Assembly: GCF_000003605.2 (NCBI RefSeq)
Contig: NW_003106097.1
Coordinates: forward strand, 194,075-216,099
Direction of reading: 5' to 3'
From: Saccoglossus kowalevskii
Lineage: Eukaryota > Hemichordata > Enteropneusta > Harrimaniidae
DNA length: 22,025 nucleotides
A program made the translations under genes and the position numbers. Of this stretch, positions 259-9,871 are shown piece after piece (positions within the stretch are counted from its first letter, which is position 1; each line of letters opens with the position of its first letter). The notes beneath the pieces are model-generated. The model was not told where the DNA came from. It did no database searches and saw only the letters and a program-made list of their open reading frames with translations.

Positions 259-305
259 CTTCAACCATGGAAGGTACTAACCGTTAGTACCTTCCATGCT
301 TCAAC
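259..305. repeat. Mini-palindrome insertion 1 (33 bp) with 7-bp direct repeats
   Basis: A perfect palindrome (266-298) has 16-base arms, CATGGAAGGTACTAAC and its complement, around one central C. It is flanked directly by CTTCAAC on the left (259-265) and CTTCAAC on the right (299-305). The flanking repeat looks like a 7-bp target-site duplication. Three further insertions of the same plan occur at 4920-4963, 6731-6766 and 9841-9871. Confidence 0.75.
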
Positions 306-336
306 GCACATGTACCTTAGTCCGTATGCATTGTTT

Positions 337-414
337 GCGAGATCTTAAGATCACGCGTGACACGTTAACAAGATTGCGAGATCGCCAGATCCCGCGTGAC
401 GTGACAACATGTAC
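337..414. repeat. Two-unit 39-bp direct repeat
   Basis: Units 337-375 and 376-414 share GCGAGATC, AGATC and CGCGTGAC at the same offsets. The first unit contains the palindrome GATCTTAAGATC. This is an imperfect tandem duplication; no function is apparent. Confidence 0.6.
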
Positions 415-1122
415 TGTACATTTCGGTGCTTGATCATCATCCATAACTCTGGGATGAAAGATGGTATAAACACTATGATACGAGTTGTCTTTTATCCTTC
501 GTTTAGTTTTTAACTGTGATTTTTTCCGGTTAATGATATTGTGTCTTTTGTTTAAACATCAGGTTAACATGCGATGGACCTCGGGCTGGTATAGAAGCAC
601 TGTATGGAGCAACAAATAGCTAAGCTAAACAAATTTCACGTTCTGAAATAGACTACTACATCCAGCTAACTCTGAAAATGTTTCTCCGCATTCACTTCAG
701 TGACACAGTGATTATTGTGATGACCACCCAAACGAAAAAAATCAGTTGGTTAGGCTACAAATCGTGAAGCTAGCCTACAATGAAGGTCGTTTAATGACCA
801 AATCAGTCGTAATTTGCATTATTTTAATTACTCAAGGCTACTTAACTTTATTTTAGGAGGGTACTTCTAAATTCGATTTCTGTTGGACAAGATTTCTTAT
901 GAACATAACCGAAAGTATTCAGGATATCAGGGGCTATTGAGGACGTAGTAGAGGTTATTGCTATTGCAATATTAAATATTCTAACAACAAAATGGAACCG
1001 TGTAATCACGTGATCATTGTGCAAATAGAGAGGTGTTATTTTCGAAGAAACCAACATAAGGCTACAGAAATGATGTTCGCGGTACTTAGGGATACTATAA
1101 AACGTTTGAATTTAATTTTATA

Positions 1123-1325
1123 TACTGTAAAATACTTTATTTTAGCTGAAATTAATTTTCGCTGAAAAGACATTTTGGGTTTTTTGTATGGAATTTATTT
1201 TCACTGATTTTTGACAAGTTGAATGTAAAATGTAGGAAAAAAGGTGTATTCGTTGGATTTTATTTTTACTGAATCGTTCCTTCCGCGAAAATTAGTTCCA
1301 AGCGAAAATAAAGTATTTTACAGTA
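1123..1325 (+). mobile_element. MITE family 1, copy A (203 bp, full length)
   Basis: This is a non-autonomous inverted-repeat element. The ends TACTGTAAAATACTTTATTT and its complement are perfect over 21 bases (1123-1143 against 1305-1325). The interior repeats TTTTCRCTGA-type motifs and has no coding frame. If the outer TA is the target duplication, the TIR starts CTGTAAAATAC, which fits a Tc1/mariner-type source; that assignment is inference. It is the longest uninterrupted of four copies in the window, the others being 13095-13605 (reversed), 19576-19736 and 20474-20636. Confidence 0.8.
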
Positions 1326-1523
1326 CATCATACAAAGTGGGAATTCAACTTCAAGTTTATTCGTCATTTGCATACCCCGCTCCTCGTACGTACGGAGGTT
1401 GATCGAAATGGGATGTTATTACAGTTGCTTACAATATCCGTGATTTTCGATTGTGCGTGTACTCATTGTGTGGACGCGGGGTGTGTGTTTTATTGATCAT
1501 AATCATGTCCTGTCTGCATATCA

Positions 1524-1573
1524 CACCAATGCATAAACCACATCACGAAATGATGTTGTTTGTTGTATTGGTG
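1524..1573. repeat. Imperfect 50-nt hairpin
   Basis: Arms of about 22 bases, starting CACCAATGCATAAACCACATCA, pair with TGATGTTGTTTGTTGTATTGGTG across a five-base loop with a few mismatches. It is shorter than a usual animal microRNA precursor, and the base pairing does not clearly extend beyond the arms. It is more likely a foldback remnant. Confidence 0.35.
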
Positions 1574-1848
1574 GTTGTCACGCACCACACAAGTGCGATT
1601 TTAATGGAGTTCGTGCTTTACTGGAGACATACCACACGCTCAGCGTGTGTGATGTTGCAATAACGGTATAAGGGTATATCACGTGTCTATTACCGTAACG
1701 CTGCTTTGTCGTACATTGTCGCCGAACTTCGGGGGATTGTTACCAAATTTCCGAACGGTCATTTGTTTTTTCTGGTGGACACTTCCTTCCAACTTCGTTC
1801 TCCTCGGACCAGTCTGACGTTGGGCGAAAATTGTCCAAAATAACAAAA

Positions 1849-1864
1849 CGGCGTAAAGACGCCG
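1849..1864. repeat. GC-rich perfect hairpin
   Basis: CGGCGT and ACGCCG enclose an AAAG loop. It stands out in AT-rich surroundings. It has no T tract and no gene context, so no terminator role is claimed. Confidence 0.3.
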
Positions 1865-7330: not shown

Positions 7331-7366
7331 AGCCGGACGCTTTCCCACTACACCACACGTCTGGGT
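7331..7366 (-). other. tRNA-derived SINE-like A-box fragment
   Basis: On the minus strand, TGGTGTAGTGG (7355-7345) matches the RNA polymerase III A-box pattern TRGYNNANNNG and runs into GAAAGCGTCCGGCT, a style seen in tRNA-derived SINEs. No B-box follows on that strand and no cloverleaf can be drawn, so this is at most a truncated relic. Confidence 0.28.
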
Positions 7367-7705
7367 TTCATGCGTCATCGACCTACTATTGTAACTAAGC
7401 GATGGGCTGCACTTGGGATCCCGGCATTGACGTACACTCGCCGGGGGAGGCTGCCATCAAATATATACTATATTTATGACTCAAAAACATATGTATGTTT
7501 ACAACAATTCTTAATATCCGGATAAAATATCAGATACGTCTTCGTCATTGTTTTTTCTGGATGTTTTGCGTGGTGTGAGGGAAACGTCACCCGCATAGCA
7601 CAGGGTTTCCGCACCCGCATGTAATGGTACATCCCGACCTTAATTCTCAGTAAACTCAGCTCACAGTGTGGCAGGTCCCGCCTACTCACAGATAATACGC
7701 TGGAA

Positions 7706-7725
7706 TGACGTCAAACCCTGACGTG
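7706..7725 (+). promoter_or_regulatory. CRE plus half-CRE upstream of the SIK start exon
   Basis: A perfect palindromic cAMP-response element TGACGTCA (7706-7713) is followed six bases later by TGACGTG (7719-7725). They lie 375 bp before the start codon, in a locally GC- and CpG-richer stretch (about 7540-7920) that also has TATAA at 7868-7872. CREs bind CREB/ATF proteins. Since SIKs restrain CREB through CRTC, a CRE here would fit negative feedback. The site is seen in the sequence; its function is inferred. Confidence 0.45.
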
Positions 7726-8073
7726 TGCCTGCAAGCATCCTGCGGTGTATTCCGCGCGATGAAAGCAAGCTTGGCTCTGCCAGCGACACGATCATCTTGG
7801 ACGTGTTCATAGTGTATTGACTGCCATCCATTCAAACGCTTTTCTGCAACGTTCCAGCTAGGAAGGGTATAACCAGCTTCGGAGCTAAAGTCGGTATCCC
7901 GCCGTAGCGGTTCACGCTCTATCCCTCTGACTCACACAGGAAATCTAAACGACTATGTCCACGCTGTTGTGCCTGCTCTGACGAAGGAAGCGATGGACTA
8001 TTTTGCCGAGCTCCACCATGATTTTCTAACATTTTTTTTATTCTGATATTCCTGTGCGTCTGTGTGTTTTCAG

Positions 8074-8206
8074 ACCAGCGATGGTTATCATGGCCGAGAA
8101 ATCGAAGGGGCATATCCGTGTGGGATTTTATGACATAGAACGAACCATCGGTAAGGGGAACTTTGCCGTGGTGAAACTAGCTCGCCACCGGATAACTAAA
8201 TCGGAG
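8074..8206 (+). CDS. SIK2: SIK exon with start codon: kinase glycine-rich loop
   Basis: Translation starts at ATG 8081-8083 and gives 42 residues ending RHRITKSE, phase 0. Residues 14-22 are VGFYDIERT and the nucleotide-binding loop GKGNFAVV is residues 24-31. The start at 8081 is chosen because MVIMAE resembles the MVIM/MVMA openings of vertebrate SIK1/SIK2; a second ATG at 8090 would remove three residues. An acceptor (pyrimidine-rich tract then TTTTCAG, ending 8073) lies seven bases before the ATG, so this exon probably follows a non-coding 5' exon. A mature transcript start in the GC-richer DNA just upstream, with no splice here, cannot be excluded. The donor is GAG|GTAGGT at 8207. The open frame running past 8206 is intron read-through. 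Confidence 0.93.
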
Positions 8207-9179
8207 GTAGGTGGAATCGGCTTTTTAATCCTATACATGAATATATTTACTGTTTTCGTGGAGTGTGTTTGTGTGCGGGACACAGTGGTACTATCACAAT
8301 CGCGATTGTTTTTTTTTACACCACAGCTGATAGGCGTCGGCTGAAACTATAATATATTAAATGTATACATCGATCTTTTCCAGCTTTTACTATGATCGAA
8401 AATAACGTGCCTGGCCATTGTTTTAATTACCCTACCGCGTTTTGTTACCCCATAACCTTGTTACACAGGTCGTACCATTCATTTTCACTAGCATGGGTAC
8501 CACGCCGGGTTTTCTTTGTTTACGATGCTATCCTTGTTTTACATTTTGTGGATAGTTTTTCACATAACCCGCAATTCTAAATTCTCCCCTCGCGCGACTC
8601 GCTATTAATTAATTTTTCATCTTACCCGCCATATGCACTTGCACTTCACCACCCAGGCGTTATTTTTAAAACTTTATTTGCTTTCAAAATCGGTTAAAAA
8701 CATCAAAACTAATTTATATTTACCCGACATTATACGTTTGCTATGAAAACAGTTATAACGTTGATATACAGCCCCTTTTAGATCATAGGGGCAGTTACAA
8801 ATATACTCATTTCCGCCATAAATATATACAACCTGCGCTCGCAATGTGACCAATGCCGGTAAATCTATGAAGGCTTTGATCGGTTTTAAAACTACCCGTT
8901 ACTTCGCGGGCCAAACACCGACACAACACAATGTCGTTTTAGCAATCAAATATGACGTCTCTTCGCGATTAGCCCTTTTTTAATTATCCTACAATCAATT
9001 AATTAATTACCTGCATTTTAATGTCTTTTTTGACTACTCTTGTTTACGTCACGCAGTTGTCATCAAGGCCATGTTAATTTCCGGCTAAACTGCCAAAACG
9101 TTGAATCGCAATGTCCCGTATTGCATTGCGTATCCCCTTTTACTTTAATAATAAACAATCAGACGTCAACACAAATTGT

Positions 9180-9270
9180 ATTTAACAATGAAAGACCCAT
9201 TATTTATCTTCTTATATTTATAAGGTTGTAATAAAGAATTATCTTCTCTTATCTTATCTTATCTTATTTA
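9180..9270 (+). mobile_element. Possible LINE 3' end with TCTTA tail
   Basis: A TAATAAAG run at 9229-9236 leads directly into about four to five tandem TCTTA units (9246-9267). Short tandem tails after an AATAAA-like signal are typical of several non-LTR retrotransposon families. No reverse transcriptase sequence is visible upstream, so only a truncated end could be present. A plain microsatellite is the alternative. Confidence 0.3.
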
Positions 9271-9840
9271 GTTTGTGATGTTGATTTGCACGTTTTCTTT
9301 ATTTCGCCACCCACTTCTATAAAAAAACAACACATCAACAAATTGATATTCCATATTAGTTTATTACTGGTAGTAAATATTGATCCATGTGTGTCACAGG
9401 ACTATTTCAAGAAGTATTTCTAATGCATGATCATAAACTATATCTCGCTTTTTGGTGGTGTACACACCACTGTTGCTTTTATTAGTTGTGAACAGTTCAG
9501 TTTAAAACCACTAGTTCATCAACATTCTGTGATCGAACATATTTTTTCTTTGTTCTGGTTTGTTTGGAAGCTTAGAAACTATGTTTGTTAACATTCTGAT
9601 GATTATTAATAGACCAAAAAACAATGTTCATGTTTATTGTCTGGTTTCAGGTTTAGATTTGTTTGGTTAGTTTTTTTTGTTTTTTTTTAAATTAATTAAG
9701 AATAATATGGTTTCATGAAAAATAAAAATGAAATAAAAATTGGTTCATGCACATCGATTTTACATCCAAAAATTGAGCAGAAGCATTTTTTTTTCATAGA
9801 TTTATTTTCAACAAATTAGTTCTGAAAAAAATTTACTTTA

Positions 9841-9871
9841 CTAGAATCATGGCTTACCTCCATGCTAGAAT
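9841..9871. repeat. Mini-palindrome insertion 4 (17 bp) with 7-bp direct repeats
   Basis: The insert 9848-9864, CATGGCTTACCTCCATG, keeps the family right end ACCTCCATG but has a shortened left arm (CATGG). It is flanked by CTAGAAT at 9841-9847 and 9865-9871. It looks like a member with an internal deletion. Confidence 0.65.

Follow-up and report, generated by a model that had tools for sequence, protein, structure and literature searches.

The locus

The window, that is, the whole stretch of 22,025 nucleotides of Saccoglossus kowalevskii DNA that was analysed, contains two exons of a SIK-type kinase gene and four short palindromes (33, 30, 22 and 17 bp), each flanked by exact 7-bp repeats that can be read directly in the window. 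The features are as follows, the palindromes being listed as putative scars.

259..265, unstranded: scar 1, left target-site duplication CTTCAAC, identical to 299-305
266..298, unstranded: scar 1 core, 33 bp, CATGGAAGGTACTAACGG element type, made of 16 nt and 18 nt from the two ends, overlapping by 1 bp (L004)
299..305, unstranded: scar 1, right target-site duplication, from the window sequence
4920..4926, unstranded: scar 2, left target-site duplication CCCGTAT, identical to 4957-4963
4927..4956, unstranded: scar 2 core, 30 bp, CATGGAGGTATA(A/G)ACAGA end type, as in cores on C363, C650 and C804
4957..4963, unstranded: scar 2, right target-site duplication, from the window sequence
6731..6737, unstranded: scar 3, left target-site duplication GTTTATT, identical to 6760-6766
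6738..6759, unstranded: scar 3 core, 22 bp, one substitution from the core at C255:197509
6760..6766, unstranded: scar 3, right target-site duplication, from the window sequence
8081..8206, + strand: first coding exon of the SIK-type kinase gene, an open frame with exon ends set by eye, alone without a Pfam match
9841..9847, unstranded: scar 4, left target-site duplication CTAGAAT, identical to 9865-9871
9848..9864, unstranded: scar 4 core, 17 bp, asymmetric in that one end contributes 5 nt and its partner about 12 nt (CATGGAGGTAAG)
9865..9871, unstranded: scar 4, right target-site duplication, from the window sequence
13854..13970, + strand: next kinase exon, Pkinase PF00069 (E 4.8e-8), best solved relative SIK3 (8r4o, E 1e-14)

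Scars 1-3 lie upstream of the first coding exon of the SIK3-like kinase, and scar 4 lies in the intron that follows this exon. The four palindromes and their repeats are located exactly where the first-pass annotation had placed them (259-305, 4920-4963, 6731-6766, 9841-9871), but the GGAGGT/ACCTCC-type arm that it ascribed to all of them is not shared by site 1, whose arm is GGAAGGT/ACCTTCC. In site 3 there is one mismatch in the outer 9-nt arms (CAGGG), and the palindrome claimed for site 4 amounts to a 5-bp arm match (CATGG/CCATG), its right end nevertheless reading CATGGAGGTAAG. Scar 4 is the poorest palindrome among the four. The ends of scar 1 were assigned by reference to the 33-nt inverted repeat of full elements (see below), and the ends of scars 2-4 belong to a second type. 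No full element was found inside the window at 60-6000 bp, in a scan for CA...TG ends with exact 7-bp flanks and 16-nt ends agreeing within 5 mismatches.

Abundance in the window and in the genome

A strict test of the window, which required an exact 7-mer and 5-bp perfect inverted ends around a core of 12-40 bp, returned four sites, namely sites 1, 2 and 4 and an unrelated tandem at 10196, whereas 60 Markov shuffles averaged 0.08 and never gave more than 1, in line with the earlier judgement that chance was an unlikely source. With one arm mismatch allowed, 12 sites were found against a shuffle mean of 1.6 (maximum 4). A relaxed scan gave 4 sites where shuffles averaged 1.1 and reached 4 at most, which is unimpressive by count; it recovers scars 1-3 and misses scar 4, because the arms of the latter are too short. 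When any palindrome was accepted, over about 219 kb, 6162 cores passed, and exact flank repeats of 4 to 10 bp numbered 46, 16, 12, 8, 6, 2 and 6, declining smoothly with length and with no peak at 7 bp. Since these loose scans are unremarkable, the case rests on defined end families and not on palindromes generally.

In the 572-Mb genome, the first-type pattern CATGGARGGT-N0-20-ACCTYCCATG occurs at 119 places in forward and 120 in reverse orientation, and the second-type pattern CATGGAGGT-N0-24-ACCTCCATG at 271 places; variants of the second-type ends rest on end strings guessed from the cores. For the first-type and second-type patterns the reversed-pattern control gave 0, so that the genome-wide comparison proposed by the first-pass annotation comes out far above its control (119 and 271 against 0 and 0). 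Third-type cores, defined by the ends of the element copy L066 and counted by their ends alone, number 66, the reversed-pattern control giving 2.

Target-site duplications, target motif and empty site

The flanks of the first type were examined in 44 loci taken from the first among the matches listed, with L016 left out (n = 43). The flanking 7-mers are identical in 27/43 and differ by at most one mismatch in 40/43, while exchanging flanks among sites gave exact agreement in 0.055% of draws. In the hAT superfamily the target duplication is 8 bp, and an origin from this superfamily is ruled out, since in an 8-bp register the flanks disagree at all 43 sites. For the second type, 11 of 20 flank pairs are exact and 16 of 20 agree within one mismatch, L110 failing in register.

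Across 66 sites the target motif is palindromic, with its axis of symmetry at the centre of the 7-mer, and extends past the duplication, the main positions being T at -2 (74%), T2 (79%), A6 (67%) and A10 (67%). When the window targets were rebuilt minus the insert and scored with a motif trained on 62 other sites, they ranked among the best 0.08, 4.1, 2.3 and 7.7% of positions in the window (combined p 5e-5).

An empty site with a single 7-mer, of the kind that the first-pass annotation had proposed to seek at orthologous loci, was seen in a related repeat copy: L094 has no palindrome and is shorter than L006 by exactly 27 bp, corresponding to the 20-bp core and one 7-mer. Alignment coordinates likewise imply 27 bp missing from C2915 and C776; on the other side, 10 scar-spanning L006-like copies are not shortened by at least 27 nt. 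Together, the matched flanks, the palindromic target motif and the empty site show that this class of sites arises by insertion with target duplication.

Anatomy of the cores

The 43 first-type cores represent 25 distinct sequences of 20-36 bp, and all retain at most 19 nt of the 33-nt repeat per side; four of them reach 19 nt, where the last base is supplied by the other end as well. Cores of 41-71 bp are present at only 8 more places, most of them with reiterated end pieces, and again at most 19 nt of the repeat is retained at an edge. Exactly two end prefixes, mostly overlapping by 1-4 bp, account for 28 of the 43 cores, and an overlap of 2 bp or more is seen in 20 of these 28, where random joins would give 16% (p about 1e-10; 5/11 and p 0.02 for distinct two-prefix cores only). 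The remaining 15 require substitutions or extra bases beyond the two prefixes. Among the matches listed for the third type (66 places), 8 of 22 cores are joined at a CTAG overlap. First-type sites carry the anatomy that defines an excision scar, namely a target duplication enclosing parts of both ends, with microhomology or templated filler at the junction. At L089, GTTTCAC occurs five times, and between the copies lie a palindrome of 33 bp, an element of 932 bp, an insert of 12 bp and a palindrome of 18 bp.

Parent elements and transposase

In 16 of the 30 loci L070-L099, the 33-nt inverted repeat CATGGAAGGTACTAACGGAAGGAGCCACGACGC is represented by two ends that lie 570-935 bp apart, between 7-bp duplications of which 15 are exact and 1 has a mismatch; these copies are non-autonomous elements. 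The P-type RNase H domain (PF21787) has 13 matches in the genome and none in 14 control genomes. The best match (E 3.4e-26) lies within an open frame of 610 aa (L058), whose only solved relative found was the P transposase (6p5a/6pe2), a weak hit at E 0.005. A THAP DNA-binding domain, expected at the N-terminus of a P-superfamily transposase, was looked for within this frame, where Pfam returned PF21787 only.

The search for ends covered 12 transposase regions and gave single candidates in L058, L059, L066 and L067. Only the candidate in L066 matches exactly over 12 nt, the match continuing to 18 nt and further, while those of L058, L059 and L067 lack such a match and look like chance. L066 is a 4333-bp copy in which a decayed PF21787 domain lies between inverted repeats CAAAGACACTAGAAAAAG... 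(32 of the first 36 nt match, counted by eye), flanked by GTTTGCC/GTTTGCA. L065 has a first-type end with decayed transposase pieces 3.9 kb off and its partner end missing, and L068 has two related ends (16/18) around a transposase fragment, with differing flanking 7-mers. An intact transposase with first-type ends was not found in the 12 transposase regions or in the available parts of the longer copies on C3574 and C3977, nor was a copy uniting second-type ends with an intact transposase, or any full parent element with the second-type ends seen in scars 2-4.

Of the features by which the P superfamily is recognised, the following are present: inverted repeats of 33 nt in first-type elements and 32/36 in L066; duplications of 7 bp, within the 7-8 bp of the superfamily, in the 16 full elements and, with at most one mismatch, in 40/43 and 16/20 scars; a palindromic target motif reaching past the duplication at 66 sites; and the PF21787 transposase, for the third end type only.

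Origin of the palindromes

In our view, each site most likely marks the place that a P-superfamily DNA transposon left and where the donor DNA was then repaired, and would be an excision scar closed by end joining (probability about 0.92). An element would insert and duplicate a 7-bp target, and its transposase would later excise it with a long stagger, cutting one strand at the element edge and its complement about 18 nt into the inverted repeat, the latter a position suggested by the ceiling on retained end sequence. Both flanks would be left with 3' tails of about 18 nt which, being copies of the same end, could be end-joined at short self-complementary stretches such as CG, TA, GTAC or CTAG, and filler copied into the junction would sometimes be added; the outcome would be a 7-mer, a short palindrome and a 7-mer. 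Joining of the tails is suggested by how the junctions are built, taken together with the analogous Drosophila P junctions. Excision itself is likewise inferred, no locus having been caught both before and after. Among the options raised in the first-pass annotation, excision scars are the one backed by full elements with 7-bp duplications and by P-type transposase domains, and an uncatalogued hairpin insertion process is not needed.

That the 17-40-bp palindromes are themselves mobilised and inserted as micro-transposons is very unlikely. Eight first-type loci do share an identical 32-bp core between different 7-mers, as this would predict, but the sampled cores are far from uniform (25 sequences among 43), microhomology overlap is enriched, most long cores hold reiterated end pieces, and the internal transposase binding sites of P elements (as given in the available part of PMC7776569), which the elements of this genome may also need, cannot fit in the core.

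Less probable still are extreme internal deletions, produced by incomplete gap repair after excision rather than by direct joining of tails. In wild-type flies, P excision is described as commonly leading to repair synthesis that stays incomplete and is then closed by end joining (PMC2895639, available part), and non-autonomous copies as short as 570-935 bp are present here. This process, however, predicts variable retention of the 33-nt repeat and of sequence past it, whereas retention halts at 18-19 nt, and cores of 41-71 bp number just 8 against 119 of 20-40 bp; the ceiling of about 18 nt thus disfavours an option that had been raised at the outset.

Chance palindromes between chance repeats have a negligible probability: short palindromes are abundant (6162 passed the loose test over about 219 kb), with no 7-bp peak among their flank repeats, but for the defined end families chance is refuted by the counts in the window (4 against 0.08) and the genome (119, 271 and 66 against 0, 0 and 2), and by exact or near-exact 7-bp flanks in 40/43 and 16/20 sites.

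Comparison with known P-type systems

The following comparisons draw on the available parts of the cited papers. A close parallel to the excision scars proposed here is provided by Drosophila melanogaster P elements, whose P{wa} excision junctions (PMC2895639, Table 1) consist of the target duplication, at most 17 nt of CATGATGAAATAACATA per side and 2-bp microhomology or templated filler. As in our sites, both ends start with CATG and the transposase belongs to the same superfamily; the duplication is 8 bp in the fly and 7 bp here, and the stagger is 17 nt within the repeat (PMC7776569) against an apparent 18 nt or so. The fly junctions compared here were recovered in repair mutants (PMC2895639), whereas the scars described here sit in a reference assembly, and the class of fly junctions that loses nearly both ends would slip past the patterns used here.

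Galileo, a Drosophila element also of the P superfamily, makes 7-bp duplications within a 15-bp palindromic target motif that, as here, reaches 4 bp past them (PMC4168063). Its target consensus is GTANTAC, with GTATTAC in D. willistoni, where our sites have roughly GTTNAA; its inverted repeats are long, and a scar archive is not described in the available part of that source. Terminal inverted repeats in zebrafish and fly P types measure 13-31 bp. Zebrafish Pdre2 and THAP9 share with the present system a non-insect P-type transposase, and their excision has been demonstrated (PMC10983969). In the zebrafish the duplications measure 8 bp and the inverted repeats 13 bp (PMC7776569), against 7 bp and 33 nt in the first type, and in fly-cell assays Pdre2 and THAP9 leave larger flanking deletions and not tidy palindromic scars (PMC10983969). 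Coral MITEs (PMC2872659) gave no useful lead as a comparison in the part available.

Implications

The mechanism is already known from flies; what is notable is a readable genome-wide archive of scars, and one target 7-mer used four times. No report of a genome-wide catalogue of P-type scars stood among the matches listed in searches of openly licensed papers. Ordinary repeat annotation would probably miss such past transposon activity, because barely more than about 40 bp remains. With hundreds of natural scars, the apparent cut position (about 18 nt inside the end) and the target preference can be read from a single assembly, experiment-free. The scars also display the germline joining of long 3' tails, through short microhomology and filler copied into the junction, both of which in flies depend partly on DNA polymerase theta (PMC2895639, available part).

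A more speculative and rather doubtful suggestion is that the P-type systems of this lineage became excision-dominated: scars would outnumber intact ends, and the two 7-mers of each scar would offer new targets, so that repeated insertion and excision at one spot would build 7-mer ladders such as that of L089. If this were true, the micro-palindromes would be a continuing supply of small insertions near genes.

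Four palindromic sites in the window and their gene setting

The first-pass annotation described four short palindromes between exact 7-bp repeats, and all four were confirmed on the window sequence:

266-298: scar 1, palindromic core of the first end type
4927-4956: scar 2, core of the second end type
6738-6759: scar 3, core of the second end type
9848-9864: scar 4, core of the second end type

The reading that fits these sites best is that of end-joining scars left by the excision of P-superfamily transposons. Structures with perfect 5-bp ends and 7-mer flanks number four in the window (three of the sites, 1, 2 and 4, together with an unrelated tandem repeat), against a mean of 0.08 in Markov shuffles of it. 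The window contains SIK3-like kinase exons; the first coding exon is preceded by scars 1-3, and the intron after it holds scar 4. This arrangement would agree with the preference of Drosophila P elements for gene promoters, as described in PMC7776569, a single window being no proof of bias.

The reading frame of a kinase exon at 21794-21910 shifts after YLANHGRL, through either an assembly error or a genuine frame change. The window also holds a tandem array of 157-bp units (16117-16669, about 3.5 copies), a 45-bp inverted repeat with a TCCCATAATGCATTGCACATA-like repeat around it in three copies (11069-11362), and dispersed repeat copies, some in each orientation, that are at least about 90 bp long and about 70-94% alike (1122-1215, 13516-13605, 19575-19668 and 20473-20566).

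Genome-wide numbers, 7-bp flanks and an empty site

In the 572,110,611-bp assembly, where the window occupies C95:194075-216099, strict patterns (two end sequences with a short spacer) found 119 first-type cores forward and 120 reverse, 271 second-type cores, and 66 places with third-type cores, which carry the ends of locus L066; the reversed-pattern controls gave 0, 0 and 2. All three counts are far above the controls.

Flank statistics cover first- and second-type cores. From 44 first-type loci among the matches listed, one was left out (L016, its pattern being read on one strand); in the remaining 43 the two 7-mers are identical in 27, and differ at one position in 13, at two in 2 and at three in 1. 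Taken singly, the seven positions agree in 38-42 of the 43 sites, and none of the 43 matches in a 6-bp or 8-bp register. Among 20 second-type cores, 11 have exact 7-mers, five have one mismatch, three have two, and one (L110) is out of register. Across 197 kb scanned for short palindromes of any kind with perfect 6-bp arms and 7-mer flanks, four were found, against 0.33 expected (three shuffles per locus), a density biased by the choice of loci for P-type elements or domains; all four have CA...TG ends and belong to other end types. In a looser scan of palindromes in general, flank repeats showed no peak at 7 bp.

The single 7-mer lacking a palindrome, predicted for an unoccupied site, was found in a repeat copy. 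Locus L006 carries a 20-bp scar within an interspersed repeat, and the related copy at L094 is exactly 27 bp shorter at that point, the length of the core and a single 7-mer together. Searching the genome with L006 gave 43 rows, sorted by reading alignment coordinates and including the query itself: 21 scar-spanning places are 27-39 nt shorter, two further places (C2915 and C776, four rows) have flanks implying the absence of 27 nt, ten scar-spanning places do not have the expected 27-nt shortening (from 21 nt shorter to 13 nt longer), and the remaining rows are six one-sided pieces and one fragment.

Rebuilt over 66 sites, the target reads about T-N2-GTTNAAN-N2-A, a palindromic motif whose layout is comparable with that of the 15-bp motif reported for Galileo, a P-superfamily element of Drosophila, in PMC4168063. 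With a motif trained on 62 sites outside the window, the four window targets fall among the best-scoring 0.08, 4.1, 2.3 and 7.7% of positions in the window (combined p 5e-5). At L089:724-1753 a single target 7-mer has been used four times: GTTTCAC stands there five times in a ladder, with a palindrome of 33 bp, a P-type element of 932 bp, the 12-bp insert CATAGTTCCATG and the 18-bp palindrome CAAAGACAATTGTCTTTG lying between the copies.

Parent elements and transposase

The P-transposase RNase H domain (PF21787) was found 13 times in this genome and in none of 14 control genomes, and 12 regions around these matches were inspected. One, L065, contains the first-type end CATGGAAGGTACTAACGGAAGGAGCCACGACGC, and a 301-base stretch from this end matches at least 70 places, with 40 of the 125 candidates scored. 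Full elements of 570-935 bp, complete with both ends and a 7-bp duplication (exact in 15), stand at 16 of 30 loci from this search. Exact 21-nt first-type ends number 58 genome-wide versus 119 strict first-type scars, a rough comparison that undercounts diverged copies, since an intact end needs a 21-nt match and a scar only 10 on each side. Just within the P-type end, L065:940-1236 gives a weak PHD-finger match (E 0.003, under the curated cut-off), part of which is matched in many non-autonomous copies.

At L066, a decayed P transposase region lies inside a 4333-bp copy between inverted repeats CAAAGACACTAGAAAAAG, alike at 32 of their first 36 nt and flanked by GTTTGCC/GTTTGCA. The corresponding third-type core CAAAGACACTAGTGTCTTTG, joined at the self-complementary CTAG, accounts for 8 of 22 cores among the matches listed. 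In L068, ends related to the first type lie on either side of a transposase fragment, and may or may not form a pair, as their flanking 7-mers differ. The second-type ends of scars 2-4 are presumably also of P-type parentage.

Anatomy of the cores and the proposed excision

First-type cores are built of two prefixes from one 33-nt repeat, retaining 10-19 nt per side, most often 17 (21 of 86 sides); where a core reaches 19 nt, as four do, base 19 is also provided by the opposite side. An extended search found cores of 41-71 bp at eight places, with the repeat retained at an edge for 19 nt at most; the majority of these cores hold reiterated end pieces, the exceptions being C3574, with foreign filler, and C1622, which fits only in part. 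Exact two-prefix joins form 28 of the 43 first-type cores, and the other 15 have substitutions or additional bases. The overlap is 0 in two joins, 1 bp in six, 2 bp in 15 and 4 bp in five, so that 20 of 28 overlap by at least 2 bp, compared with 16% for random joins (5 of 11 when distinct cores are counted once, p 0.02). The transposase would have cut about 18 nt inside the element end, and the cut ends would then have been repaired by end joining. Second-type cores have several end variants, some of which may keep 19-20 nt, so the stagger may vary by one or two bases among variants.

This anatomy closely matches the Drosophila P junctions in Table 1 of PMC2895639, which come from repair-mutant flies. 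There, one of the two commonest junctions (14 isolates) has a 2-bp overlap, one base inside the tail end; in the other (14 isolates) both ends are nearly wholly lost, a class that the strict core patterns used here would miss.

Excision scarring is already known in Drosophila, and the process would be the same here, in a version with a 7-bp duplication and a probable cut at about 18 nt; the archive of scars and this version in S. kowalevskii would add new instances of a known process.
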